Below, piece after piece: positions 23,487 through 60,885 of a stretch of DNA of 64,000 bases. The notes beneath the pieces were generated by a model. That model was not told the origin of the DNA and made no database searches. It saw only the letters and a program-made list of their open reading frames with translations. Location: contig NZ_FQYU01000002.1 in the NCBI RefSeq assembly GCF_900141855.1, forward strand, positions 620,001 to 684,000, in the 5' to 3' direction. The stretch's first letter is position 1; each line of letters starts with the position of its first letter. This DNA is from Pseudozobellia thermophila. Lineage in GTDB: Bacteria; Bacteroidota; Bacteroidia; Flavobacteriales; Flavobacteriaceae. A program made the translations under genes and the position numbers.

Positions 23487-25358
23487 TTACTTACTTCTGG
23501 CAATCACTATCACCCAATCTTTATGGTCTTGGCCGTTGAAGGCCGAAAGCTCTACACTATTGGGCTTGGTAATTTTCCAACCTTCGTTCTGCTTATCGTA
23601 GAGCTTGCCGCCCTCTACGGGGTCATAAAATGCTATTGAGAAGGCCCCATCGCTTATCTGCAGGTCGGTTCGCTCACCTTTAGGCAAATAAACCACATAA
23701 ATTTCATCTTTTTTAGCAAAGCAAAAGGCTTTGTCGTTGCTCAGGAGTTCATCGTGCCCCTGCATTTCCCAAAACGGAAGGTGATTCCTAAAGAACTGCG
23801 TGGCATTATTGCAAATATCCCACCATTTGTCCCTGGCCCTAAAATCTTCGGCGGCCATATCGCCATTGGCAACATCTTGCCCTCCGAAATACCATGAAGC
23901 ACCGGCCGCACCCGACATCAAGCTGCCCCACAAGGCGCTGCGCATTACCATGGGGTGGTTATTGTTTGCCGCGGTATCGGTGGTTACCCCGATATTCCAA
24001 TGTCCGATTTCGTCGAGATAAACGACCCATGGTTTTTTCTTTTTCTTGGACAGGTCTACCCATTTCCTTACCTCTGCATGAATTTCGGTCGTATCGAACA
24101 TTTGCAGCGAAGGTATTTCAAAATCTTTGTACCCCAACATCGGGGCAAAGGTCTCCTTGATGGGATCCAAAGGCCTCCCTTCTACCCTTTTTCCCGTAAC
24201 CCTAATGTGATTGTGTACCGCAATAGGATGGTCGTAGGGGTCGATACTGCGAATGTACGAAGCATAGATTTTTAATTGCTCGGGGGTGTGATTGGTTTCC
24301 TCCCCCAGATTCCATACCACCCCCAAATGATGGCCGAACCTGGCCACCAGCTCCCTATAGTACAGCATTCGCTCCCGACCGAGCTTCCCTCGGTTCAAAA
24401 TTGAATCGTTTTCGGTCTCTTGGGTAAACACGTTCATGGCCATACCAAGTTGGTCCATATGGGTAAATACCTTTTCCCATTGGGCCAGTTTGCTCACGTC
24501 ATATCTTGTTTGTTCTTCAGGACCAATCCATGGCCACACATTATCCCCGTCCCCGTGCACGTTCATGGTCATAAAATACAGGCTGTTCATCCCCTTTTCG
24601 GCAAGGTAGTTCAGGGCTCCCATTATTGCCTTTCCCTTACCGTCTCCCCATGTGGCATCATCATCCTCCCAAATGGACCCACGGTCGTCCCAATCGTCGG
24701 TATGGGCCCGATATTCGTGTAAGCCCTCGTTCAATGTTGGGGTGTCGATCCCTCCGTTATCATAGGTAGCATCAAATTCGTGGAAGGCCAGAAAGGTTTC
24801 GGGACTACCGACACCATTTTTTAAAAAGGCCTTTTGGGTTTCACTTTCGATCAGGTAACGACTTCCGTTATAAACCAAGCGACCCGTCTTGTAAAACCCC
24901 TTGGCCAAGGAATCTACCGGTTGAATTTGAAAACTCCCGGAAATGTTCCAGATCTTATCGTTCTCTTTGGGAAGGGAGTATTGCGTAACCGCAATATCCT
25001 TGCCCTCCATCAGGTACGCGGTAAATTCCCATACCCCTTCTTTGTCGGGCGAGAACTTTACCTGCCATTTATCACCGCTATCGGCACTCGAATCGGCCGC
25101 ATTGCCATCGGCAGCAAAATAGCCGTTAACGGTATACGAATTGTCGCCATTAACAAAGTTCACCACCAAACTGTAATCTAAAAATGGATTACGGTCATCC
25201 CTTTCAGAAGTTTGGGGGCCGTCAAAGGTTATGGTTATCGGCTGCCACTTCCTCAAGCTACCTTCGAGCACATATTGCCGTTGTTTTGGGTTTTTAGAGC
25301 ATCCCCATAATACGGTTACAAGTCCGCAAAGGAAAAAGATTGATCTACAAGATCGCAT
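23487..25358 (-). CDS. DUF5060 / TIM-barrel glycoside hydrolase-like lipoprotein with C-terminal beta domain
   Basis: From the ATG at 25358 (MRSCRSIFFL...VLWGC) this is a 623-residue lipoprotein; starts at 25385 or 25418 are possible. An N-terminal beta-sandwich of DUF5060 type (WQPITITFDGPQ...NPFLDY) is followed by a TIM barrel with candidate catalytic acids in VVWNLGEE and VYLDEIGHWN. It ends in a beta domain like the putative collagen-binding module (FCFAKKDEIYVVYLPKGE). Such proteins are common in marine PULs for sulfated galactans and act as exo-hydrolases where tested. The substrate cannot be told here. The divergent neighbour is a sulfatase, which fits removal of sulfated sugars. Confidence 0.8.
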   Translation of the reverse strand: MRSCRSIFFLCGLVTVLWGCSKNPKQRQYVLEGSLRKWQPITITFDGPQTSERDDRNPFLDYSLVVNFVNGDNSYTVNGYFAADGNAADSSADSGDKWQVKFSPDKEGVWEFTAYLMEGKDIAVTQYSLPKENDKIWNISGSFQIQPVDSLAKGFYKTGRLVYNGSRYLIESETQKAFLKNGVGSPETFLAFHEFDATYDNGGIDTPTLNEGLHEYRAHTDDWDDRGSIWEDDDATWGDGKGKAIMGALNYLAEKGMNSLYFMTMNVHGDGDNVWPWIGPEEQTRYDVSKLAQWEKVFTHMDQLGMAMNVFTQETENDSILNRGKLGRERMLYYRELVARFGHHLGVVWNLGEETNHTPEQLKIYASYIRSIDPYDHPIAVHNHIRVTGKRVEGRPLDPIKETFAPMLGYKDFEIPSLQMFDTTEIHAEVRKWVDLSKKKKKPWVVYLDEIGHWNIGVTTDTAANNNHPMVMRSALWGSLMSGAAGASWYFGGQDVANGDMAAEDFRARDKWWDICNNATQFFRNHLPFWEMQGHDELLSNDKAFCFAKKDEIYVVYLPKGERTDLQISDGAFSIAFYDPVEGGKLYDKQNEGWKITKPNSVELSAFNGQDHKDWVIVIARSK

Positions 25359-25511
25359 TTGGTGGTAGTTTGTTTTAGCGGGCATAAGATAACGATATTT
25401 TCCGGAGTCAAAATCCAATTCAACCTAAAACCCCATCGCAAACGATAGTATCTTACATTATCGGAAAAAACCTTTATCTTCATTTTCATTCCACCAGAAA
25501 AAAAGCCCACT

Positions 25512-32794: not shown

Positions 32795-34183
32795 CTATTC
32801 ACTGGTAAAGGCCGAAGCGGGAAGCCCGGCCCCGTTGAACAAATTGGGTTCGGCCACGTTGTCCCATGCAAACCTTACGTTGACCGGTAGGGGTACTTCT
32901 TTCGACGATACAATAACCTTGTCGTTCTTGATCACGGCCTTTGCGGGGTAATATTTACCATCGGCCCCGGCCACCTCAAAATGGGTAAGTTTTTTTCCTT
33001 TGGCCATCAGTCCCTCCGCATGGTCAAAAACAACCTCTATTTTCTTTCCGACTACCTTGTGCGCCTTAAAAAGGGGGCCGTTTACTTCCCCGTCATAACT
33101 ATTATAGGCTTTCTTCAAGGCGAGATTGGCCAATCGCAACCCCACGTCCTGTTTATTGGGCGGATGAATGTTATCGACCGTGGCAATGTCGCTGACCACG
33201 ACCATACCCGATCGGGGGATTACCTTCAGGGCTTCCCTTTGGGCATTCCTTAAATACACTCCCTCTTCGGGATTTTTATACTTATACGGCGCAATTTGCA
33301 CATAATAAAACGGGAAATCGTAGCCCCAGGCATTACGCCACGATCCGACCATTTCGGCAAACAATTTTTTATAGCGGGCATGACGGCTTACGTTCGACTC
33401 GCCTTGGTACCAGATAACACCCGCGATCTTAAAGGGGGTAAGTCCGTGCACCAATCCGTTGTACAGGGACGATGGGGCAACCGGGCTCCAAGGGGTCTCC
33501 TTAAGGCCCAAGGCATCTTCCTTCAGGTCCGGATTTTGGTCGAAAACCGATTTTGTGGCCCAGACCTCGGCCGGGGATCCTCCCCAGGCATTGTCGATCA
33601 GGCCTATGGGTATGTTTAACTGTTCGTGAAGCCTTCTTCCGAAAAAATAGGCGACCGCACTAAAGTCTTTCATGGTTTCAGGAGTGCAGACCTCCCACGA
33701 GCCGGGTACATTCTCCTGCGGGTATTCGGCCGTTCTTCTTGGGACCGAAAAAAATCGGATATTGGGATAGTTCGCATTTTTTACTTCCTCCTCGCCATTA
33801 ACTATACCGGTGGAGGTAGAGGCGCTCCACTGCATGTTCGACTGGCCGGAACAAACCCAGACCTCACCGATCAATACATCGCCCAAAACGATTTCATTGT
33901 CCCTCCCTTTAAAGGATATGGTATAAGGTCCTCCCGCTTCAGGGGTGGAAACCTCCACCTCCCACTTGGCGGTGATGGGGGTCTTGATTTGGTAATGCTT
34001 ATCGTCCCACCCCGTGACAATGGTAATTTCCTCCCCGGTATCGGCCCAGCCCCAGAGTTTAACACTTTGGTTGCGCTGCAGGACCATTCCTTCCGAAAGA
34101 ACATTTGGCAGGGTAATTTCGGCCGTGGCGATTTGAAACGAAAACAGAAACAATAAACTAAAAAAACAGTACTTGACTTTCAT
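32795..34183 (-). CDS. Sialate O-acetylesterase-like carbohydrate esterase
   Basis: This 462-residue protein has a signal peptide (cleavage near IATAE). The SASA/SGNH fold is shown by LSEGMVLQR at the start, the nucleophile block VCSGQSNMQW (Ser at about 115), a WYQGESN block and DNIHPPNKQ with the catalytic Asp/His. Despite the family name, PUL-borne members commonly remove acetyl groups from plant or algal polysaccharides. It is the first gene of a minus-strand group, with 185 bases and a terminator upstream. Confidence 0.9.
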   Translation of the reverse strand: MKVKYCFFSLLFLFSFQIATAEITLPNVLSEGMVLQRNQSVKLWGWADTGEEITIVTGWDDKHYQIKTPITAKWEVEVSTPEAGGPYTISFKGRDNEIVLGDVLIGEVWVCSGQSNMQWSASTSTGIVNGEEEVKNANYPNIRFFSVPRRTAEYPQENVPGSWEVCTPETMKDFSAVAYFFGRRLHEQLNIPIGLIDNAWGGSPAEVWATKSVFDQNPDLKEDALGLKETPWSPVAPSSLYNGLVHGLTPFKIAGVIWYQGESNVSRHARYKKLFAEMVGSWRNAWGYDFPFYYVQIAPYKYKNPEEGVYLRNAQREALKVIPRSGMVVVSDIATVDNIHPPNKQDVGLRLANLALKKAYNSYDGEVNGPLFKAHKVVGKKIEVVFDHAEGLMAKGKKLTHFEVAGADGKYYPAKAVIKNDKVIVSSKEVPLPVNVRFAWDNVAEPNLFNGAGLPASAFTSE

Positions 34184-34368: not shown

Positions 34369-37300
34369 TTAGTGCCGGATCAAAAGGCGTTCGTTTATTT
34401 CCTTTCCATCCACGTCTTTCGTCCTCATAATATACATTCCGGCAGACAATCCCGCTACTTCGACCTCGTAGGTACTACTGGCAGATGTGCCCGGGTTTTC
34501 TATGTAGAGTACCAAATTACTTCCCATATCGAATATCGAAATGGTCTCAAGCCGTACCGGGGCCCCAAACCCTATGGTCACCCTTACCGAAGCCGGATTC
34601 GGGAACAAGCGGAATTCATCCTCATCGATATCCGGTGAATTGGAAACCGTAATGGTGAGTGAGTCTTGGCCAATTTCACCTTCTCCGTCCTCTACCGACA
34701 AAGTGACCGTATACGAGCCGGGCTGGTTATAGGTATGGGAGGCAAGCGCACCGTTTACGGGATCCGAACCATCCCCAAAATCCCAAGTATAGCTAACGAT
34801 TCCACTGTCATCGGTTGAATCTTCGCCATTGAAGTTAACCAACAGGGGCGCATAACCCGATACAATATCGGCCAGGGCAACCGCCGTAGGGGCACTGTTC
34901 GACCTTTCGAAGACAACCTCCATCGTATGGTCCGAACCCACATGGGCAAAGGTGTATTCCTGCACAATATCGACTTCCTCGTTGTCCACTAAAATCCGGG
35001 CTATACGGAAACCGTCATCAGGGCTAATACCAATAACTTGGTCTTCTCCCTTGTCGACCGTAATCGTACCGTTGGGATCTACCGTTCCCCCTTCCGAGTA
35101 AGTTACCGTTATCGTGTAGGTATCCCGATCTGATTTTTCCTTAAAGACAGCCTTAATGGTATGGGGTTCGGTTACGTTTTCAAAGGTATATTCCGTTATG
35201 TCCTTCACCACTTCACCATCCACCTCGAAATAGTCGAACTCGTAACCGGCACTGGCCGTAACCGAAAAGCTCAGGCTTTCGGACTCCACTACCAAGTTCT
35301 CGCCTATAGGTGTAATAGTACCTCCATAGCCGGCCGATGCGATGATCAAATAGCTGGGCTTTTCGACCTCGGTAAATACCGCCTTAATGGAGTGTTTCCC
35401 GGTGATATCCTCAAAGAGGTATGAAGGTTCGTGAACAATAAACTGATTGTCCACAATAAAATAATCAAATTCGTAGCCTTCATCCGCAGTAGCGGTAAAG
35501 ACCTGATCTTCCCCTCCATCGAAGAAGAGTGCCCCCTCGGGGGAAATGCTACCTCCATCACCGGCGGTAGCTGTTATGGAGTTCGGTATCTCGACGAATA
35601 CGGCTTCAATCGTATGGTCTTCGGAAACCTCGTTGAAGGTGTAGCTTTCAAGGGCACCTTGGGAAACGCCGTCAACAAGTACATTTTGGATCGCATACCC
35701 TAGATCGGGCGTGATGAGGAACACTTGGCTTTCGCCCTCGACGACCTTGACATCCCCGCTGGGACTTATGGTTCCGTTGGCCGCCGACACCACCGATATC
35801 GTATATTCCACCGCTGGTGTTACCGAAATTTCCACGGTATCGCTATCCGTCTTACCGTCGCCATCGGTTACCCGTAACAGCACGGTATAGGTACCGGGTT
35901 GCGTAAAGGTAAAGCTTGGGTCCGCTTCGTCCGAAGTCGAAGAAAGCGCATCGCCGAACTCCCAGCTATAATCGACTATACCCACATCGTCCGCTGATCG
36001 ACTACCGGTAAAATTGACCGTGAGGGGTGCACTTCCCGATAGGGGATCGGCTCCCACGACTGCAAAGGGATTACCCGAATTATCGACCACCCATTGAAAT
36101 TCGACGGAAGAGGAAATTCCAGTGTTTTGGGCGGTTACCACCACGCTGTACGGACTATTGTCAGCCGCGCCTTGGGTCGTGCCCCCGCTTCGTTCGGATT
36201 CGCCCAAGGCGGTCAATTGCCCATCTGAATAGGATGTCCCGTCAAGTTTGTACAGGGCCATCTTATCAATCGTATGGCCTGCCGACCTTTCCGATATTTC
36301 CATGGTATACGTACCCGGGTTAACAAACCAGACATACACATTGTGCGCGTCTTCATCACTTGTTTTGGCTTGCCAATCATAGGTTTCCGACGTTCCACCA
36401 CTTCGCCATATCTTGAAGTACCCGTTACTTCCGCTCCCCTCCGGTGTCGTTTCGGAAGTTACCCTTGAGCTGCCTTTCGGGAAGACTACGTTTTCTTGTT
36501 CCCCCGTTAGATTCGCAATTAAGCTCGCTTCATCGGCAGGGGTACCTTTGTAACCAAAGAACCAAACGTTTTCGTTGTTAGGGAACCTGAGCCAGCTATC
36601 GTTTTCATCCGTTGAACTATCTCCCGAATAAAAACTTCGCCAGTTAAAACGATAAACGCCCGGGTTGGTAATTTGTATCTGATATGGGATGGTGCCCTTG
36701 CTTTGTGAATTAAAACTGTCGTTCGTAGCTATTATACCGACCGCACCACCAGTGGTGGTCTCCGTCCACCCCGGCGTGAGCGTACCCGATTCGGCTTCTA
36801 TGACCACCAGACCGTTGTCCTCTATAAACGCCCCGTCGGAATCGCCGGAACCTATAATACCGCTGATCAATCCGGTAGCCTCGTCAATTTCGAGTCCGGG
36901 AGGAAGCCCTTCGGCAGAAAAGGTTAGGTTACTGCCCATATTCTCGGCGACCAGCTGCAGGTTAACACTTTCACCTTCTGCATTGTATTGGGTACCGGGA
37001 TCGACGATACCCGCATTGTATTCCCCATTTTTTAGAACAATATCAACTGCCGAACCAGCACCGTATTCAATGGTAAGAATCGCATGGGTATCCGCACCTG
37101 ATTCGTCCAATGCGATAGCCAGTTCGTACAGACTATTCGCTTTAAGCAAGATGTTTTCCGTTTCGGTCGAAGTAATGGTGTAATGTGAGCTATCATCACC
37201 CGACAGCTTCATCGACCGAATAAATATACCGTTGTTTCCGTCGGTCACCTGCAAATTGACATGGCCTGTTTTACCCACTTCAAAATCAACGATATCGGGA

Positions 37301-40300
37301 ACGGAAAGCGCACTTGCCGCGATGGCTTCGCCCACAGGGGCGTCGACGCCATAGTATTCCATGTTCTTTTGGTTTCCGCCTCCTTTGACGGGTGAACCGG
37401 CCAAGACATAGACCCCGTTTCCGGAAACAATGGCCTGGGTACCATGTCGCGCATGGTTCAGGTCGGGCAATCTCGACCAAGACTGGCTTTCCGGGTCGTA
37501 TTCCTCGGTAACCGCCAAGGCTCCCGAAGTTACCTCACCGTAAACTTCCTGGTCTTCGACTTCGCCACCTGCCACTATAAGTTTTCCGTTGAAACCGGCT
37601 ACCGCGGCGGCGGCCCTCGGCGTAGGTATATTTTGATCGGAGGGAAGTGTACTCCAGGTACCCGTACTGAAATCATACACGTCTACCTCGGCGACCGTAG
37701 GTTTGAAAACCCCTTCATCGCCTCCGGAAAGACGGCCTCCGACCAAGTACATTTTGTTTTCCAAAACCGCAGCATGGAAATGATCTCTGGCCCTCGGGGC
37801 ATCGTCTAAAACAGTCCACTGCCCTGTTGCCGGATCATACTGGTCGAACCAGTTTACATATCCTCCATCATGGCCATCGGTGTTTCCTCCGGAAATATAG
37901 AATTTATCGTTGTACACTACCAATCCGGTAGACCCACGCCTTCTGTTCTCGGGTATTTCGGGCCCTTTTATCCATTCTTCGTTCGCCGGATCAAATGCCC
38001 AGATATATTCGGCAGGTGCTTCATTGGGAAAGCTATTGGTCTTAAAGGCCCCGATTACCCAAATGAGACCTTGGTATTCAACAGCTTGAAAATGATTGAA
38101 CTCCTCCGGGGACGAGTTCGATATTTGGGTCCACGTATCGGAGGCGTAGTCGTAGACATCAATGGTTTTGGCATTCTCCCGCCCCCCCATCAAATAGAAC
38201 TTATCGCCCGCTTGTACCAAAGAACACTCATGGCGCGCCGTATAATTCCCATCCTCATCCTTATCGGTCCAATAACGATTGTCAACCGTCCACGTAAAGA
38301 CTGTGCTTTTGCTGACCGATCCAGGTTTGCTGACCTTAACGGTTACCGTGTGGATACCGTCATTATTGGTTCCCCCGGTAAGTGCTGAGCTTGCAATGGT
38401 TCCGTAAATATGGCCATTGGTAGGTTCTATATTGATACCATCGGGCTGGCCTGCAATGGCATAGGTAAAGTTCTGGTTGGCGTCGCCACCGCTTGCCGAC
38501 ACCGCCAAATCGATATGGTCGTCAACAAAACTGAACTGATCTTCGATGGGCACAAGCGTAACGGGAGCGCTCCCTTCGATAACCTTCAACACCTCTATGC
38601 CCTGCAATACAGGGTTTTCAACGCCTGTATGACCGAACAGCACATTAAGTTCGCCATCGGAAACGGAAACTTCGTACGAAAGCATACCGGCGTAAAAATC
38701 GGTTCCTCCGCCGCCGAACAAGGCTACCACGTCAATATCGTCTCCCTTTAGTTCCGACTCTATGAAGATATCGAAAATTCGGTCCCCTATATGATTTGCC
38801 GGGCCATAGCCATTACCTGTATAGATATTTACAATGTAATCGCCATTTTCCACGGGAAACTTGAATTCCATGTCCGCCCCACTGGAACTGTCGTACCTTT
38901 CCTTGGAATAGATGGCATTAAAGGTAGCCTCATCAATATAGGAAGGAACGGAGATATGCCTGTTCTCGTAAAGGAAGGTATTCTCGGCCGACGGTATAGA
39001 CCCTGTATTCACTGAATACTTATCCCCTGTTACGGCCCCACTGGCGGCATTCGCTTCCCAATCGAGTTCACCGTCCGTTGCGGGCACCGCCGGACCACCG
39101 GCATTGACGCGGGCCACCACCTCATAGGACGGTTCTATTTTAACCTCCAAGGTTGAGACCAAGGGAACAATATAGGGTGAGTTTTCGCCACTGTGAACAA
39201 ATTCCAAGTTAGCTGTTTTGACACCTTCCACGTTATCGGGAAAAAAGTTCAACTGTATGGTTTTATTGGCCCCGGGACCTAAGATCAAGGGCAATTCGAC
39301 GTTGTAATCGAACAAATCGGCATTTGCGCCTGTAATCCGAACATCGGTAATTTCGATGGCTCCGGATGCCGGCCCTCCCCCGTTTTCGAGTGTGGGAACA
39401 AGCTGCACTTGGCCCGATCCCGTATACAGGGTACCAAAGTCAATGGGGCTGTCAGAAAGGGCCAATTCCGTATTCCCATCAACTTTCACATTAATATAAT
39501 CCCACGTCGCGGTAAAAGGAGTACCTCCGTTCGAAGTTGCGATAAGGCCCACGGCCATACCTTGGTCATCATTGGGGTCTAAAAGGGCCGCCGGCAAAGC
39601 GACGGGCTCGCCCAAGGGATAAACATTTTCCCCTCCATCTACCGAATAATAGGGTTGTGCCGTATTCGCTTGGGGATCTACACTAATATAGACATAGGCC
39701 GCGGACGCCCCTTGCAGTCCCACCACATCGTACTTTTGTGAATAAACGGTCGATGTGCCGTCCTCACGTACAACCTCGAAGCCCAAAACCCCATCATCCG
39801 GAAGGGTTCCATCCATAAGGGCCAACTTAAGATAATGGTCTTGGTCTCCGTTACCGATAAAAATTCCGTATGAATTGTTCTCGGTCGAAGAAACATTGGC
39901 AAAGGGGGTTTCAATTTTCGAATGAACCGTGAACGGCGGGGAATTGGTATCGACATTTACCCCAAATTGAAAGCCGTTGTTTTGTGTATTAGTGAGGGCA
40001 TCGCCTTGGTCTACGAGGTCGATCGTAGCCTTGCCCCCTGCCCCTCCAAAGGAGAGGTTGTCCCCATCAAATTGGTCTAAATAATCGGTCGTACCGTCCA
40101 AGGGCAGCATCAGACCGGTAAAACCCAAGCCGAAAAAACCCGTTCCTGGATCATTGCTCCAAAAGGGGTACTCAACGGGAAGGTTGGTCGCCAAGCCATT
40201 GGATGCATCGATCGCGAAGGGGTCGTTGACATCGGGGATGCCATCATTGTCATCATCGGGGTCGTTCAGGTCGGAAATAAAATCCCCGTCGTTATCGGTG

Positions 40301-42144
40301 GGTTTGCTTCCGCCCGAGCAGATATCCGTTCCGTTGGCCAATTCGTCATCATTGGTATAGCGATCATAATCGTAGTCGGCCGTACCATCGTATTCGGGGT
40401 CCGAGGGTTCTACACAATTACCAAAATCGGTAGGCTCGAATACGGAAATGCTGTTCGACTGATAGTTTGCGACCCATATGGTACCTGGAAAAAGATCCAA
40501 GTCCCCTTGGGCGATAACATCGAGCGGGATTGAACCAAAGCCCGATAGAAAATTATTGTTCTTCCCGTTTAGGCCGTCGCCACTTTCATTTAAGATGTAG
40601 CGGTTGATTTTTCCGTTGTGCGAGGCCGTTAGGATATTTCCCTTCATCGCCCCGTCGAAATTGCTCGCCGTGTACTCACATATACCGTTGGTGGAAGAGT
40701 TGACGATATCCAAAATCCTCATTCTCGGATCGTCATCTACGTTGGACAAATAGGCTCCCTGTATCGGGTCATCAGGAAAATCCGATAGATCAAAGGCTGG
40801 ATTGTAGTAGCCCGAAACCCCGGTAAGCAGCTCGCCTAAATTATATTCCTCCTCAATTATCCAATTCTTGCCGTCAAACTCGTAAACTTTTAGACCGGCC
40901 CTTGAGGGAAAAGCCCTGATCGGTACCGGGTGCCCGGCATAATAGCTTCCGTTGGCATCCGTTACTTGCCCTACATAATGCAAGGGATCGCCATGCCCTA
41001 AATGTCCCGATTCATTCAACTCATTGGTAATATAATCGCCATTGTCAGGGTCGTAGACCGTGGTGCTCTCGTCCCCTTTACGTTGGCCGTCGGCGGTGTA
41101 AATGACCGGTAGGCCTCCCCAAGTTTTATTAGGTCCGTTGTCTACCGAGTATACCCTACCATCTGCGGTTATCATCACATCGTAGCCATTTCGCCACCCC
41201 GGGGAAAAGATCTGGACGGGTCCGCCCTCTTCGTGAAATGCTTGGTTCAAGCCATTATTCCCCCCAAAGGGATCCCCTTTGTCAATGGTAGCATTGTACA
41301 TGGGATGACCGACAGGGTAAGGAAATTCGGGATCGGTATTGTCAATATCGGGCCTACTGGGGTCGTTCAATGTAGGTAAGTCGTAAATAAACTTTGTATT
41401 TCCCTGTCTGGTATCGACAAAGGGCCCGCCGTTCGCAGCCTCGATCTCTTCCAACTGCGTAAGGTCAATAATCAACATGGCACCCGACAAAAAGGTTTCG
41501 GGGGTACCGGCAAAGTTATTGCTTGGTGCCCCCTTGTTGGCATTTCCCCCTTGTTGCAACAGCAGATAGGTATTCCCATTGCGTTCAAATATCTCCATCC
41601 CGTTCGTGGAATGGTTTTCCTCACAGCGGGGCAAGCCCCTGACCAGGTCCACCTTGTCCCAAGTCGTACCGTTATAGGTAAGCCTGGAGAGCACACCCGA
41701 ATTGGTATCGAGGTTTTTATCGTTGCCACTTCCCCCTCCTCCGATCCTGGAGTCGGAAGAACTGACATAAAGCACAGGTACCGTGGCCGTTCCTGCGGCC
41801 AACAAACCCGTTATCTGACGTACGTTTTCCGTATTGATGGTACCGTCATCATTGTGGTTGGGCACCTCGTTACGAACAATGTCTATGGTTTTTGTATCGA
41901 CGGCGGTATAGGTGCCCTGCCCCGGATCGGCATCATCGCGTAAAATGCTATATTCCTTGATCGTTCCGTCTTGTTGGGCCACATAGAGCTTTCCATTGGG
42001 ACCGAAATCCAAGGATGTAGGCTTTAAGATTTCGGCATCGACAAGGTTGGTCGCATTAAAGCTTTGGGCGCGCCCCGCCCCAATAAACAACAAACAAAAC
42101 AAAGATGTAAGAAACACCGAGTATACAGTGTAGTGTTTTTTCAT
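34369..42144 (-). CDS. Giant T9SS-secreted multi-domain protein (2591 residues)
   Basis: Signal peptide 1-26. Rough domain order: a beta-propeller like PQQ/sorbosone dehydrogenases (about 28-570, starting LKPTSLDFGPNGKLYVAQQ); a Ca-binding thrombospondin-3-type Asp repeat (about 600-640); a LamG-like domain (about 670-885); a choice-of-anchor domain (890-1000); a malectin-like domain (1010-1185); a cadherin/Ig-like domain; kelch repeats (about 1300-1605); a second anchor-like domain; a carbohydrate-binding-like domain (1780-1985); a PKD domain (about 2030-2110); four InlB-B-like repeats (2120-2415); a second PKD; and a type A T9SS sorting domain (from about 2510, FRLFPNPAS). It should be exported and fixed to the cell surface. 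Enzymatic activity of the propeller is unproven. It is a single transcript flanked by a terminator and a 370-base upstream region. Confidence 0.9.
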   Translation of the reverse strand: MKKHYTVYSVFLTSLFCLLFIGAGRAQSFNATNLVDAEILKPTSLDFGPNGKLYVAQQDGTIKEYSILRDDADPGQGTYTAVDTKTIDIVRNEVPNHNDDGTINTENVRQITGLLAAGTATVPVLYVSSSDSRIGGGGSGNDKNLDTNSGVLSRLTYNGTTWDKVDLVRGLPRCEENHSTNGMEIFERNGNTYLLLQQGGNANKGAPSNNFAGTPETFLSGAMLIIDLTQLEEIEAANGGPFVDTRQGNTKFIYDLPTLNDPSRPDIDNTDPEFPYPVGHPMYNATIDKGDPFGGNNGLNQAFHEEGGPVQIFSPGWRNGYDVMITADGRVYSVDNGPNKTWGGLPVIYTADGQRKGDESTTVYDPDNGDYITNELNESGHLGHGDPLHYVGQVTDANGSYYAGHPVPIRAFPSRAGLKVYEFDGKNWIIEEEYNLGELLTGVSGYYNPAFDLSDFPDDPIQGAYLSNVDDDPRMRILDIVNSSTNGICEYTASNFDGAMKGNILTASHNGKINRYILNESGDGLNGKNNNFLSGFGSIPLDVIAQGDLDLFPGTIWVANYQSNSISVFEPTDFGNCVEPSDPEYDGTADYDYDRYTNDDELANGTDICSGGSKPTDNDGDFISDLNDPDDDNDGIPDVNDPFAIDASNGLATNLPVEYPFWSNDPGTGFFGLGFTGLMLPLDGTTDYLDQFDGDNLSFGGAGGKATIDLVDQGDALTNTQNNGFQFGVNVDTNSPPFTVHSKIETPFANVSSTENNSYGIFIGNGDQDHYLKLALMDGTLPDDGVLGFEVVREDGTSTVYSQKYDVVGLQGASAAYVYISVDPQANTAQPYYSVDGGENVYPLGEPVALPAALLDPNDDQGMAVGLIATSNGGTPFTATWDYINVKVDGNTELALSDSPIDFGTLYTGSGQVQLVPTLENGGGPASGAIEITDVRITGANADLFDYNVELPLILGPGANKTIQLNFFPDNVEGVKTANLEFVHSGENSPYIVPLVSTLEVKIEPSYEVVARVNAGGPAVPATDGELDWEANAASGAVTGDKYSVNTGSIPSAENTFLYENRHISVPSYIDEATFNAIYSKERYDSSSGADMEFKFPVENGDYIVNIYTGNGYGPANHIGDRIFDIFIESELKGDDIDVVALFGGGGTDFYAGMLSYEVSVSDGELNVLFGHTGVENPVLQGIEVLKVIEGSAPVTLVPIEDQFSFVDDHIDLAVSASGGDANQNFTYAIAGQPDGINIEPTNGHIYGTIASSALTGGTNNDGIHTVTVKVSKPGSVSKSTVFTWTVDNRYWTDKDEDGNYTARHECSLVQAGDKFYLMGGRENAKTIDVYDYASDTWTQISNSSPEEFNHFQAVEYQGLIWVIGAFKTNSFPNEAPAEYIWAFDPANEEWIKGPEIPENRRRGSTGLVVYNDKFYISGGNTDGHDGGYVNWFDQYDPATGQWTVLDDAPRARDHFHAAVLENKMYLVGGRLSGGDEGVFKPTVAEVDVYDFSTGTWSTLPSDQNIPTPRAAAAVAGFNGKLIVAGGEVEDQEVYGEVTSGALAVTEEYDPESQSWSRLPDLNHARHGTQAIVSGNGVYVLAGSPVKGGGNQKNMEYYGVDAPVGEAIAASALSVPDIVDFEVGKTGHVNLQVTDGNNGIFIRSMKLSGDDSSHYTITSTETENILLKANSLYELAIALDESGADTHAILTIEYGAGSAVDIVLKNGEYNAGIVDPGTQYNAEGESVNLQLVAENMGSNLTFSAEGLPPGLEIDEATGLISGIIGSGDSDGAFIEDNGLVVIEAESGTLTPGWTETTTGGAVGIIATNDSFNSQSKGTIPYQIQITNPGVYRFNWRSFYSGDSSTDENDSWLRFPNNENVWFFGYKGTPADEASLIANLTGEQENVVFPKGSSRVTSETTPEGSGSNGYFKIWRSGGTSETYDWQAKTSDEDAHNVYVWFVNPGTYTMEISERSAGHTIDKMALYKLDGTSYSDGQLTALGESERSGGTTQGAADNSPYSVVVTAQNTGISSSVEFQWVVDNSGNPFAVVGADPLSGSAPLTVNFTGSRSADDVGIVDYSWEFGDALSSTSDEADPSFTFTQPGTYTVLLRVTDGDGKTDSDTVEISVTPAVEYTISVVSAANGTISPSGDVKVVEGESQVFLITPDLGYAIQNVLVDGVSQGALESYTFNEVSEDHTIEAVFVEIPNSITATAGDGGSISPEGALFFDGGEDQVFTATADEGYEFDYFIVDNQFIVHEPSYLFEDITGKHSIKAVFTEVEKPSYLIIASAGYGGTITPIGENLVVESESLSFSVTASAGYEFDYFEVDGEVVKDITEYTFENVTEPHTIKAVFKEKSDRDTYTITVTYSEGGTVDPNGTITVDKGEDQVIGISPDDGFRIARILVDNEEVDIVQEYTFAHVGSDHTMEVVFERSNSAPTAVALADIVSGYAPLLVNFNGEDSTDDSGIVSYTWDFGDGSDPVNGALASHTYNQPGSYTVTLSVEDGEGEIGQDSLTITVSNSPDIDEDEFRLFPNPASVRVTIGFGAPVRLETISIFDMGSNLVLYIENPGTSASSTYEVEVAGLSAGMYIMRTKDVDGKEINERLLIRH

Positions 42145-42514: not shown

Positions 42515-43891
42515 ATGCAAGGCAAAAACTTTTATATCAACCGACGAAATTTTTTAAAGGGCACTTCGGCAGCAATAGCACTTTCTTCCTTTGGGGCATA
42601 CGGCATCGATTTAATGCACCGCGAAAAACCGCTACGGGTAGGCCTTATCGGAACAGGTTGGTATGGCAAAAGCGATCTTTTCCGACTGATCCAGGTAGCG
42701 AATATAGAAGTGGTATCCCTTTGTGATGTAGACCAAAAAATGCTGGCCGGGGCCGCTACTTTGGTGAGTCAACGACAAAAATCGGGCAAAAGACCAAAAA
42801 CCTTTAGCGATTATAAAAAAATGTTGGCCTATAAGGACTTGGACATCGTTCTAGTAGGGTCGCCCGACCATTGGCATGCATTGCAGGGCATCGAGGCCAT
42901 GAAAGCGGGTGCCCACGTGTATTTACAAAAGCCTATCAGTGTCGACGTTATCGAAGGGGAGGCCTTGGTCGCCGCCGCCGCTAAATACAATAAGGTAATT
43001 CAGGTAGGCACCCAGCGAAAGAGTACCCCCCACTTGGTCGAAGCCAAAAAGAATATCGTTGATGCCGGACTATTAGGAAAGGTATCGCATGTCGAAATCT
43101 GCTGTTACTATCACATGCGCGACACCAAAAACCGCCCCGTGGTACCCGTTCCCGATTTCTTTGATTACGATATGTGGACAGGGCCCGCACCCCTTCGGGA
43201 GTTTGACGGGCTTCCCCATCGTAGGTGGCGTGCGTTTATGGAATACGGTAACGGTATCGTCGGCGACATGTGCGTGCATATGTTGGATACGGTTAGATGG
43301 ATGCTAGACCTGGGGTGGCCCAAACGCATCAGTTCAACGGGCGGTATTTATGTGCAAAAGGATGCCAAGGCCAATATTACCGATACCCAGAATGCCGTTT
43401 TCGAGTTTGATGAAATGGAGTGCATCTGGAAACACAGGACATGGGGCACGGCACCGGACCCCGAATACCCTTGGGCCTTTAAAATTTTCGGGGAGAAGGG
43501 CACCCTTGCCGGAAGCGTAAAGCAATACGACTTCATACCTGTGGGAAAAGGCCAAAAGATCCATAAGGATGTGATCTACGAACGGGAGGAATACCCCGAG
43601 GACTTAACAGAAAAAGACATAGAATTGCACGCGGCCCCGGCGACCAGGGCACATATGCTGGATTTTCTTGCCGCCATCGACAAGGGTAGCCAGCCGGTCG
43701 CCAACATTCAGGAAGGGCATATATCCACCGCCAGCTGCATATTGGCGAACATGGCCCTCGAACTGCAAAGGCCCCTATCGTACGATCAGGACAAACAGAT
43801 CGTTTTGAACGACCCCGAGGCGACCCGATTGTTGCAACGAAGCTATCGTGAGGGCTGGAGTCACCCCCTGCCCGATATGTTTAAGGGATAG
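42515..43891 (+). CDS. Gfo/Idh/MocA oxidoreductase, Tat-exported
   Basis: This 458-residue protein has a Tat leader (twin Arg in INRRNFLKG) and a Rossmann domain with GLIGTGWYG (about 43-51). The family's second motif appears as SPDHWHA, and the usual Glu-Lys-Pro appears here as LQKP, keeping the Lys that assists catalysis. The C-terminal dehydrogenase fold includes GDMCVHMLDTVRW. NAD(P)-dependent members act on sugars and inositols. Exported ones probably oxidise or reduce glycosides in the periplasm with a tightly bound cofactor, including as NAD-recycling glycosidases. Divergent from the giant protein. Confidence 0.9.
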   Translation: MQGKNFYINRRNFLKGTSAAIALSSFGAYGIDLMHREKPLRVGLIGTGWYGKSDLFRLIQVANIEVVSLCDVDQKMLAGAATLVSQRQKSGKRPKTFSDYKKMLAYKDLDIVLVGSPDHWHALQGIEAMKAGAHVYLQKPISVDVIEGEALVAAAAKYNKVIQVGTQRKSTPHLVEAKKNIVDAGLLGKVSHVEICCYYHMRDTKNRPVVPVPDFFDYDMWTGPAPLREFDGLPHRRWRAFMEYGNGIVGDMCVHMLDTVRWMLDLGWPKRISSTGGIYVQKDAKANITDTQNAVFEFDEMECIWKHRTWGTAPDPEYPWAFKIFGEKGTLAGSVKQYDFIPVGKGQKIHKDVIYEREEYPEDLTEKDIELHAAPATRAHMLDFLAAIDKGSQPVANIQEGHISTASCILANMALELQRPLSYDQDKQIVLNDPEATRLLQRSYREGWSHPLPDMFKG

Positions 43892-58191: not shown

Positions 58192-60885
58192 TTACTGCCC
58201 GGCCTGCGCTTCATCTTCCCCCGAAAAAATGGGGTTGTCCTTATTTCCACCGGCTATCAAATACGCCAAGAGGTCTTTCACCTCATCAGGGCCCAATCGG
58301 TTTATGGTTCCGGGAGGCATCAGCGAAATGGTCGACATTCTCGTACCCGTCACCTGTTCTTTTGGAATACTCCTGATAACATCGGGCGCGTATGGGTTTT
58401 GGCTTATTTTATATTCGTCCCCCTCTTCACTGATCAAGCGTCCCACTACCGAATTCCCGTCCTTTAGGGTAAAAACCGTCGAGTTGTATTGGTCGGAAAT
58501 CACCTCGCTGGGATCGATAATGGCCTTGAGCATATCGGCCGGAGAGAACCGGGTTCCTATTTGTGTAAGATCGGGTCCGATATTCTGTCCTTCGCCCCGC
58601 ATGCTATGGCAAGTGATACAGTTGGTGGCCAGGAACATGTTCCTGCCCTGCTCGAAATCCCTGTTTTGGAGCCCGTCCGCCAACAAGGGCTCGATATCCT
58701 CCACTGCCCAATTCTTTCTAGGTCCCTTGGGTTGCACCGCGTTCGAGACCAGATCGTTGCCCGAACTGCTCAATAGGGAATCGCCTGACATTTCGTTATA
58801 GAGATCAAACTTGCTTTTAGAAACGTTGGCCAAGGCACTTTGCCTTGCTTTTTCTATAAAACCGATATAGCTTCTTCCCGCTTTGTACGAAAAGGCCTTG
58901 TAGAACCATTTAAAGTATTTCTCCCTGAGTTCGGGCGTCCATCCATTGGTCGCCTCGCTAAGTACCGTACCGTAATAGGTGCTTTGGGCCGGGGGCATAT
59001 TCTTCAAGGTCTCGGCAATGTCCATTCCGTACTGCGGATTTCTCAAGATAAGGTCGGCGGCCTCGGTAGCCGTATTGGCCATTACCGATGCGTTCTCCCC
59101 TTTTGGCGATTCCAACAAGGCCAAGGTTTTGGAAACCACGGTTGGCTCGCCCACATAAACCAATGTCTTGCTCAACAACTGATTGAGCACATCGGATTCG
59201 GCGGGATAGTGCGATGCCAGGTAATCGCGTACCCGCTTCTGTGCAGCCGTACCCGGTTTGCCCATGCGTGCCAAGGTCAGTTCGATGGCCCGTACCAAAT
59301 CTACTTGTTGGGCCGTGCTTAGATTGATGTAGTCGATTTCCGTTAATGCGTTCAACAATTTATCCTGCTGGCCGCTGTCGCCCTGTCGGGCCAAGGCAAT
59401 GGCCGCTTGGATCTTTTTAACGGCGTCGGTTTCGGCATACACCTTATCTTGCCACAAACGAACAGGTTGATGTTCTATGGCCACCCTTGCAGCATATTGC
59501 AAAAAGCGGTCTTCACTGTCCAAATAGGGCCAAGCTGCCTCTACCGCCCCATCTTTAGGACCGAGGTGATAGCTTTCCAGCTCCTTTCGTAATTTGTTTT
59601 CCTCGGTCTGTTCCAGGGCCAAGGCCGTGTTCCCAGCCTCGTCCAAATCCCCATCGTAATACACACGATATAGGTCGGAATCGAGCCTTCTCCCCCCTGT
59701 CATGAAATACATCGCCCCATCGGGTCCGATAACGCCGTCGGTCAAGGGCAAGGGCAGACCCGACAAAAATTCTTCCTTGGTTCCCGTATAGGAAGACCCC
59801 TTGGTTTCCAGTTCAATGGCATAGACGATACCGAAACTCCAGTCAAAGGCAAAAACGCTGCGCTTGTATTTGTCAGGAAACTTGGCATTGATGCCATACA
59901 TGACATTGGTCGGTGATCCCTGGCCGATGTTCATCAGGGGCGGAAGGTTGTCCGGGTAGGCCGGCGACCATTTTCCATTACCCGTTCTCCAACCGAATTC
60001 GGCACCGCTTGTCACATGGCAAATTCTAGTGGGCCGGTACCAGGGCATCCCCAGGTCCCATTCCATATCGGAATCGTAAACGAACATATCGCCCAATTCG
60101 TTAAAGGCGAGGTCGTAAGGGTTTCTAAACCCGGCGGCCACCAACTCCCAATTCTTACCGTCGGGGTCGAGCTTGGCCACCCATCCACCTGGAGCCCCCC
60201 TATCGTTGGCGTGGCCACGGGGATCTTTGATCTGAGGGAAAAGGTTATCGTCTTTCCAATTGTTGGGCAAACGATAGGTATCCATTTCAGGAAGATCGGT
60301 GTGGTTCCCGGCAATGACATACAAAGACTTGCCATCGGGGGAAAGCACAATACTGTGCGGACCGTGTTCGCCCGCTCCCTTGAGTTCTTGCAACAGGGTT
60401 ATCTTGTCGTATTGGTCGTTATTGTCGGTATCTTGAAGCCGGTAAAGACCACTGCTTTTCTCGAATTCTTCGTTACCCCAATGATTGACCATCACATACA
60501 GACTGTTGAAGGCATGCAGCAAGCCCTGGGCATAGCCCATTTGGATAATCGAATCGGGCACCTGACCTCCGGTCTCGATCTTTAATTTTTCGATTTTCGG
60601 GGTCAGATTATCAGATCCGATAGGAGCCACTTCCATTCGATAAAGCGAACCGTACTGATCGGAAGTGATCAAACGTCCTTTGTCATCAAAGGTCATGGCC
60701 ACCCATGATCCCGTACCCGCCTCGCTCGGACTATATAAATGCTCGGCCTCAAACCCGGGTTGAAGCTTTAACTTGGCTATTTTAGGGTCTTGATTTTCAG
60801 GGGCATCCGCCTTGCTTCCTTTATCCGGTCCACAAGAGACCAGTAAAAGGACCATAGCGGCAGCCAAAAGTGAAATTCTGTTCAT
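58192..60885 (-). CDS. PVC-type sugar-dehydrogenase-like propeller with c-type heme, lipoprotein
   Basis: This 897-residue protein has a lipobox LLVSC (Cys18). An N-terminal six-bladed propeller of the membrane-bound dehydrogenase type covers about 35-410 (LQPGFEAEHLYSP, AAGFRNPYDLAFNELGDMF, TDGVIGPDGAMYFM). A helical repeat region covers about 440-720. A c-type cytochrome domain follows, with heme site CITCH (about 752-757) and an axial-ligand Met region late (SLMPPG). These proteins pass electrons from sugar oxidation into the respiratory chain. Here it likely accepts electrons from a glycan oxidase, perhaps the GMC enzyme. First gene after susD. Confidence 0.92.
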   Translation of the reverse strand: MNRISLLAAAMVLLLVSCGPDKGSKADAPENQDPKIAKLKLQPGFEAEHLYSPSEAGTGSWVAMTFDDKGRLITSDQYGSLYRMEVAPIGSDNLTPKIEKLKIETGGQVPDSIIQMGYAQGLLHAFNSLYVMVNHWGNEEFEKSSGLYRLQDTDNNDQYDKITLLQELKGAGEHGPHSIVLSPDGKSLYVIAGNHTDLPEMDTYRLPNNWKDDNLFPQIKDPRGHANDRGAPGGWVAKLDPDGKNWELVAAGFRNPYDLAFNELGDMFVYDSDMEWDLGMPWYRPTRICHVTSGAEFGWRTGNGKWSPAYPDNLPPLMNIGQGSPTNVMYGINAKFPDKYKRSVFAFDWSFGIVYAIELETKGSSYTGTKEEFLSGLPLPLTDGVIGPDGAMYFMTGGRRLDSDLYRVYYDGDLDEAGNTALALEQTEENKLRKELESYHLGPKDGAVEAAWPYLDSEDRFLQYAARVAIEHQPVRLWQDKVYAETDAVKKIQAAIALARQGDSGQQDKLLNALTEIDYINLSTAQQVDLVRAIELTLARMGKPGTAAQKRVRDYLASHYPAESDVLNQLLSKTLVYVGEPTVVSKTLALLESPKGENASVMANTATEAADLILRNPQYGMDIAETLKNMPPAQSTYYGTVLSEATNGWTPELREKYFKWFYKAFSYKAGRSYIGFIEKARQSALANVSKSKFDLYNEMSGDSLLSSSGNDLVSNAVQPKGPRKNWAVEDIEPLLADGLQNRDFEQGRNMFLATNCITCHSMRGEGQNIGPDLTQIGTRFSPADMLKAIIDPSEVISDQYNSTVFTLKDGNSVVGRLISEEGDEYKISQNPYAPDVIRSIPKEQVTGTRMSTISLMPPGTINRLGPDEVKDLLAYLIAGGNKDNPIFSGEDEAQAGQ

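Follow-up and report, generated by a model that had tools for sequence, protein, structure and literature searches.

The closest described systems, by fold, are the soluble quinoprotein glucose dehydrogenases (sGDH) and aldose sugar dehydrogenases (PF07995; structures 1c9u, 3das and 3a9g), whose ligand roles are taken here from excerpts of two publications (PMC6881789, PMC6881810). They share with the protein described below a six-bladed propeller, the catalytic His, the Arg-Asn pair and a Ca-loop Gly at the sGDH spacing. Unlike them, the propeller studied here apparently lacks the Lys377/Arg406/Arg408 clamp, measures about 550 aa with long polar loops, forms the N-terminal domain of giant modular proteins and is hardly detected by the Pfam model. 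The second group comprises the fungal AA12 PQQ pyranose dehydrogenases (6jt5, 6i1t), in which Lys377 is absent too. They differ in that PQQ is held by Arg273, Arg621, His539 and His560, as given in an excerpt of PMC6881789, and their likeness to the present propeller lies in the fold and the absence of Lys377. The third is HHIP (7pgn, 7pgm, 2wfx; one entry solved with heparin), a secreted multidomain animal protein with an sGDH-type propeller, likened here by fold alone. Relatives of the protein itself appear in records from Hymenobacter, Rufibacter and Halobellus as 'malectin domain-containing carbohydrate-binding protein', which is only a label and leaves the propeller unmentioned. A literature search of limited reach returned no description of the module architecture presented here.

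The window, a stretch of 64,000 nucleotides from Pseudozobellia thermophila (contig NZ_FQYU01000002.1, positions 620,001 to 684,000), carries on its minus strand (34369-42144) an ORF of 2591 aa with an ATG start and an intact frame. Two relatives have nearly the same length (2603 aa in L002 and 2594 aa in L003), and the ORF and its domain order are real. The encoded protein consists of the following parts:

42067..42144, minus strand: signal peptide-like N-terminus, residues 1-26 (sequence read by eye)
40420..42066, minus strand: sGDH-type six-bladed propeller, residues 27-575 (AlphaFold model and structural matches)
40180..40419, minus strand: Asp-rich thrombospondin-3-like repeat, residues 576-655, probably Ca-binding (sequence)
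39430..40179, minus strand: ConA/LamG-like segment, residues 656-905 (weak Pfam match to GH43_C2)
38626..39120, minus strand: malectin domain, residues 1009-1173 (Pfam)
38284..38565, minus strand: He_PIG Ig-like domain, residues 1194-1287 (Pfam)
37345..38268, minus strand: kelch propeller, residues 1293-1600 (Pfam, best stretch 1279-1527)
36085..36849, minus strand: CBM6/CBM35-type domain, residues 1766-2020 (predicted fold and structural matches)
35779..36045, minus strand: first PKD domain, residues 2034-2122 (Pfam)
34909..35778, minus strand: four InlB-B type repeats, residues 2123-2412 (Pfam for three stretches, the fourth by eye)
34645..34899, minus strand: second PKD domain, residues 2416-2500 (Pfam)
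34381..34608, minus strand: T9SS type A sorting tail, residues 2513-2588 (Pfam and NCBIfam)

The malectin, He_PIG and kelch domains, the two PKD stretches, the InlB-type repeats and the T9SS tail scored over the Pfam/NCBIfam cut-off, with Por_Secre_tail exceeding both cut-offs. The sequence-library searches left residues 1-575 and 1766-2020 nearly undetected. The second of these segments was predicted by AlphaFold as a beta-sandwich (pLDDT 84, pTM 0.79) with the best structural match to residues 793-973, in the C-terminal part of a GH115 enzyme (Z 13.5); CBM6/CBM35 entries scored Z 9-11, with other sandwich domains also at 9-10. According to this model, the segment, described as carbohydrate-binding-like in an initial annotation made from the letters of the window, is predicted to fold as a CBM6/CBM35-type sandwich. 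The kelch segment (60-81% identity to 18 aligned relatives) gave matches to generic kelch and Keap1-like domains only. The weakest point of the module parse is the segment 656-905, for which the ConA-like match to GH43_C2 was below threshold (E 0.011), so that a LamG-like assignment is weakly indicated. Apart from that segment, the module order proposed in the initial annotation held in the Pfam/NCBIfam, AlphaFold and structural comparisons, and its large glycan-binding architecture was recovered in the malectin, kelch and CBM6/35-type modules. The surface sorting proposed with it agrees with the T9SS tail and with SprA, found in the same genome at 2887 bits, which indicates that a T9SS is present in the host.

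The AlphaFold model of residues 27-575, calculated from the alignment of relatives, was a six-bladed propeller (pTM 0.84, mean pLDDT 76) in which several loops, conserved ones included, had a pLDDT <50. The VIA-align list was headed by five sGDH-type chains (Z 24.8-26.1), the following rows being at 23-24. The top match was the PQQ sugar dehydrogenase 3a9g (Z 26.1, 303 residues aligned, 3.3 A, 15% identity) and the next matches of this kind were 2ism and 3das (both Z 25.4). The margin of the sGDH-type structures is moderate because designed propellers, DFPase and Drp35 also reached Z 23-24; AA12 scored about 23, Acinetobacter sGDH about 20 and HHIP about 18-19. The top four rows in Foldseek were all AA12 domains. 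The best single Pfam lead, the strictosidine synthase-like SSL_N family (E 0.005-0.007), was dropped because sGDH-type structures outscored strictosidine synthase (Z 25-26 vs 21).

The sequence signal for this superfamily was faint. With the propeller as a single query, PDB and Pfam yielded no useful match, a 32-row propeller profile run by hmmsearch against PDB sequences returned 0 matches, and the propeller of the window had no match to the GSDH model (PF07995). The same model matched 16 of the 32 aligned members weakly (E<=0.1, best 5e-5). A profile alignment with 14 ordinary GSDH proteins reached E 0.00095 at a probability of only 22%, with the His, RN and GP motifs in register. The modelled fold points to a divergent member of the soluble quinoprotein glucose dehydrogenase superfamily, and the dehydrogenase-like propeller of the initial annotation was borne out by the sGDH-type structures at the top of the fold comparison.

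The initial annotation had proposed a surface-tethered sugar oxidase or a glycan-binding scaffold and had named the PQQ/Ca ligands of the propeller as one of the points to check. The positions concerned are given below in full-length numbering, which equals domain numbering +26:

41611..41613, minus strand: His178 (domain 152) in the motif EENHxxNG, aligned with the catalytic His144 of sGDH (alignment)
41188..41193, minus strand: Arg318-Asn319 (domain 292-293), aligned with Arg228-Asn229 of sGDH (alignment)
41128..41139, minus strand: Asn336-Gly337-Pro338-Asn339, aligned with the Ca loop Gly247-Pro248 of sGDH (spacing from Arg equal to sGDH)
40516..40536, minus strand: residues 537-543, aligned with the clamp Arg406-x-Arg408 of sGDH (profile and by-eye alignment)

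Gly247-Pro248 of sGDH lies 19 residues after Arg228, and the same distance separates R292-N293 from G311-P/A312 in the propeller (domain numbering, used from here on). H152, R292, N293, G311 and N313 were invariant in 32/32 aligned sequences, those of the window and of Thiocapsa included. Among 17 further sequences from other Bacteroidota, Hymenobacter, Haloarcula, Halobellus and Parasedimentitalea (three of them distant and partial), R83, H152, R292, N293, G311 and H379 were identical in 17/17 and N313 in 14/17. The sequences with the invariant site cover both bacteria and archaea at an overall identity of about 40%. The invariant residues lay in coil in 56/91 cases vs 52% overall, an enrichment so slight that the test says little.

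The clamp stretch gave a different result. No Arg was present in columns 511-517, which correspond to Arg406/Arg408 of sGDH, in any of the 32 sequences, and a single Lys occurred there, at 513. Column 484, corresponding to Lys377, held K or R in 2/32. The by-eye alignment pairs Arg408 with L515, which is Leu in 32/32 sequences and in all 12 further rows covering the column; the C-terminal profile alignment (E 1.9e-4, probability 47%) is shifted by one residue, and neither alignment places an Arg at the clamp stretch. The basic PQQ-carboxylate clamp of sGDH therefore appears, from these alignments, to be lost in the propeller family. The ligand check thus came out in two parts, with the His, the Arg-Asn pair and the Ca-loop Gly kept and the Lys377/Arg406/Arg408 clamp seemingly absent. 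Ordinary PQQ chemistry is doubtful because the clamp residues are apparently missing. The clamp may possibly have been relocated as in AA12, with the invariant R83 as a candidate.

Loss of the clamp counts against an active propeller, as it could mean a non-catalytic domain. The whole protein would then be a surface glycan-binding scaffold or adhesin, serving matrix attachment or the capture of algal polysaccharide for the neighbouring degradation genes. The many binding modules and the sulfatase, GH88 and SASA neighbours described below fit such a scaffold as well. That 32/32 and again 17/17 sequences agree at the His, the Arg-Asn, the Ca-loop Gly and further polar residues, with an overall identity of about 40%, goes beyond what a scaffold should need, and we regard the non-catalytic reading as possible, with the odds against it.

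The genes closest to the 2591-aa gene are the following:

32795..34183, minus strand: SASA-type acetylesterase, which follows in the same orientation and is retained at L003 and L036
30028..32469, minus strand: Gluconate_2-dh3 and GMC oxidoreductase genes, with a GMC gene also near the L036 relative
42515..43891, plus strand: divergent GFO/IDH/MocA oxidoreductase, likewise retained at L003 and L036
44140..46340, plus strand: GDP-mannose dehydratase gene and epimerase gene (GDP-fucose synthase-like)

The oxidative operon noted in the initial annotation is present as the GMC/gluconate-dehydrogenase-type pair downstream. This pair suits a PQQ-dependent, surface-tethered sugar dehydrogenase passing electrons or lactones to the adjacent operon. 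The fold and the catalytic residues match sGDH, and AA12 enzymes bind PQQ with no Lys377 and with a different arginine, according to the same excerpt (PMC6881789). Five PF07995 matches over the cut-off were found in the genome, one of them an ordinary 373-aa GSDH with the RxR motif; these genes suggest that the cell may use PQQ for some purpose, and PQQ may therefore be scavenged. Against such a dehydrogenase stand the absence of Arg from columns 511-517 in 32/32 sequences, a basic residue at the column of Lys377 in just two of them, and the absence of a pqqE gene over the family cut-off from the genome. The last result has no positive control, as none of 14 control genomes gave such a match either. 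Classical PQQ chemistry is accordingly judged unlikely, as is the PQQ-dependent dehydrogenase as a whole. The plain PQQ sugar oxidase of the initial annotation gained no support from the clamp stretch or the pqqE search, and the GSDH genes of the genome weigh on the other side. The combination named there as refuting, a lack of any catalytic residue together with a lack of any surface signal, does not apply, as catalytic residues and a surface-sorting tail were both found.

Relatives of the propeller were detected in 24 of 199 genomes of the family of the window organism (Flavobacteriaceae), 18 of them strongly, with open frames of up to 3832 aa for the strong matches. The six other matches (G001, G035, G079, G103, G175, G183) were weak and partial. 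These distant, partial propellers (L024-L029) belong to ORFs of ~3000-7100 aa, and those of L024-L026 keep the His, the Arg-Asn and the Gly and have lost several Asp/Glu positions. In a phylum-wide set of 395 genomes 12 matched the propeller, plasmid records gave eight matches, two haloarchaea and one alphaproteobacterium among them, and Thiocapsa marina carries one relative. Dockerin type I proteins are encoded after the giant propeller gene on two haloarchaeal plasmids (L147 14488-18411; L148 19300-19488), as judged by Pfam for two Haloarcula proteins and by annotation in Halobellus, which places them outside the usual cellulosome hosts.

The propeller, the Asp-rich repeat and the ConA-like segment were matched together in 33/33 ORFs scanned (31 when one duplicate locus and one truncated copy are set aside), and this co-occurrence excludes a chance order of modules. 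Malectin was matched in 29 of the 31 non-duplicate ORFs. Kelch was found in 20/32 proteins and the CBM in 12/32, that of the window being counted in both. Compared with its two nearest relatives, the protein of the window is 76-82% identical in both propeller and kelch, whereas against a distant Flavobacteriaceae clade the propeller is about 39-42% and the kelch 60-73% identical. The intermediate relatives L036 and L037-L041 carry no kelch, L037 and L039 being cut by contig ends. The two clades of the propeller tree stand apart on long stems, of 0.77 and 0.92 changes per site. For kelch, the stem leading to the window protein and its two nearest relatives measures 0.2, and the midpoint root nests the three inside the other clade. 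We read this as a probable transfer of the kelch module, perhaps together with the CBM, between lineages. As the nesting hinges on the midpoint root, the pattern may instead reflect strong selection on kelch; the equal identities of the two domains among close relatives argue against this. At L044, L048, L051, L040 and L055/L063 two giant genes stand in tandem, and both kelch domains of the L044 pair are identical.

Several neighbours of the window gene are shared with its relatives. The SASA gene, both GFO genes, the GDP-fucose pair and GH88 recur around L003, and SASA, GFO and GMC genes around L036; none of the neighbours was found in the surrounding DNA examined for L002. The GDP-mannose dehydratase and its epimerase partner, presumably a GDP-fucose synthase-like protein, adjoin the gene in the window, in L003 and, in another arrangement, in L056. 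The window also holds sulfatase, GH88 and esterase genes, which suit algal glycan catabolism. A role confined to algal glycan fits the neighbours in the window better than those of many relatives and was set aside.

Two further genes of the window were recorded. The one at 23487-25418 encodes a DUF5060/apiosidase-like protein. Larger proteins related to it (38-40% identity) adjoin the giant gene in L047 and L050, and the one next to L047 overlaps a CBM domain match (G049:C4:21529-22119). The gene at 58192-60885 encodes a protein of 897 aa that matches cytochrome c, in a minus-strand run with a GFO/IDH gene and TIM-barrel isomerase-like genes.

Capsule and exopolysaccharide export genes lie near many relatives, which is invisible to a reader of one window. 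A PF02563 export gene was located <=20 kb from the propeller gene in 10/26 genomes and 13/39 loci, with 0.48 genomes expected under random placement and with contig breaks ignored. A match split into pieces entered the count once, and three weak G368 matches, one of them 2 kb from an export gene, were left out of the 39 loci. The ten genomes were all among the 18 of the Flavobacteriaceae, and none was among the eight outside; the other 16/26 genomes showed no export gene within this distance, some of the contigs being short. The nominal P of 8e-12 overstates the case because sister genera may share inherited gene order. Both PF02563 genes of the window genome are on other contigs, and the capsule link in the window therefore consists of the GDP-fucose-type pair alone.

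A census of 112 neighbour ORFs, taken from 165 of >=180 aa by a length of 200-850 aa and a distance of no more than four ORFs, was led, among the best 25 of 131 families, by Epimerase (11) and GDP_Man_Dehyd (10), which are overlapping SDR families; Poly_export, Wzz and Polysacc_synt_2 followed with six each and CpsB_CapC with five. The neighbours of L049, from the other clade, included Wzc-like, Wza-like, CapD-like, DegT and CpsB/CapC proteins. The evidence for a glycan link from farther relatives is mixed. The Parasedimentitalea plasmid relative lies inside an exopolysaccharide cluster with a sugar transferase, glycosyltransferases, an export protein and sulfotransferases, a glycosyltransferase gene adjoins the Thiocapsa relative, and sugar nucleotidyltransferase annotations are near the Halobellus one. 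No glycan-assembly genes were seen near the Haloarcula and Hymenobacter relatives, four of the eight plasmid matches having been inspected. A SecA gene is located directly upstream of the giant gene in L041 (11444-14797, G106), and ORFs of 1117 aa precede it in L038 and L039.

These neighbourhoods bear on a further explanation, a T9SS-type gliding or cell-cell adhesin with no specific tie to exopolysaccharide. The T9SS tail, the large size, the repeat-rich stalk and the presence of SprA would all be expected of such an adhesin. Proteobacteria and haloarchaea are not known as T9SS organisms, and the proteobacterial relatives and one haloarchaeal relative keep the propeller and sit near glycan genes; export-gene adjacency is, moreover, far above expectation in the Flavobacteriaceae. 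This makes a plain adhesin very improbable.

From the domains, the fold, the residue conservation and the genomic context of relatives, all computed directly, we infer the surface location, the glycan target and the catalysis of the reading that we prefer. The protein would be exported by the T9SS and sorted to the cell surface by its C-terminal tail. Its malectin, CBM6/35, ConA-like and kelch modules would hold a glycan, in many cases probably the exopolysaccharide or capsule of the cell itself, with the Ig, PKD and InlB modules forming a stalk. The propeller, keeping the catalytic His, the Arg-Asn pair and the Ca-loop Gly and seemingly devoid of the PQQ-carboxylate clamp, may have one of the sugars of this polysaccharide as its substrate and use a cofactor or a chemistry that departs from the standard PQQ mode. 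A fucose-type substrate is a cheap first guess and no more, as it derives from the docking of TrAA12 with L-fucose reported in an excerpt (PMC6881810) and from the GDP-fucose-type genes beside the window gene, L003 and L056.

That the protein is a polysaccharide-associated surface protein is quite probable. The predicted activity of the propeller is an evenly balanced matter. The complete reading, a surface-displayed, polysaccharide-associated T9SS protein with an active non-standard propeller, has about an even chance of being right. More tentative is the broader proposal of a deeply conserved clade of quinoprotein-fold enzymes in bacteria and archaea, which would act outside the cell on its own exopolysaccharide with a non-classical cofactor or reaction, as the leading domain of a giant surface protein that exchanges its other modules.

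Should the propeller prove active, it would be an enzyme that works outside the cell and edits the polysaccharide of capsule or matrix once this has been exported, and its site would be one shared by Flavobacteriaceae and haloarchaea alike. Activity would also provide a testable function for proteins now labelled 'malectin domain-containing' or 'hypothetical'. An active group of sGDH-fold proteins with the PQQ clamp changed or dropped and the catalytic core kept would be a natural experiment on how a fold gains new chemistry.
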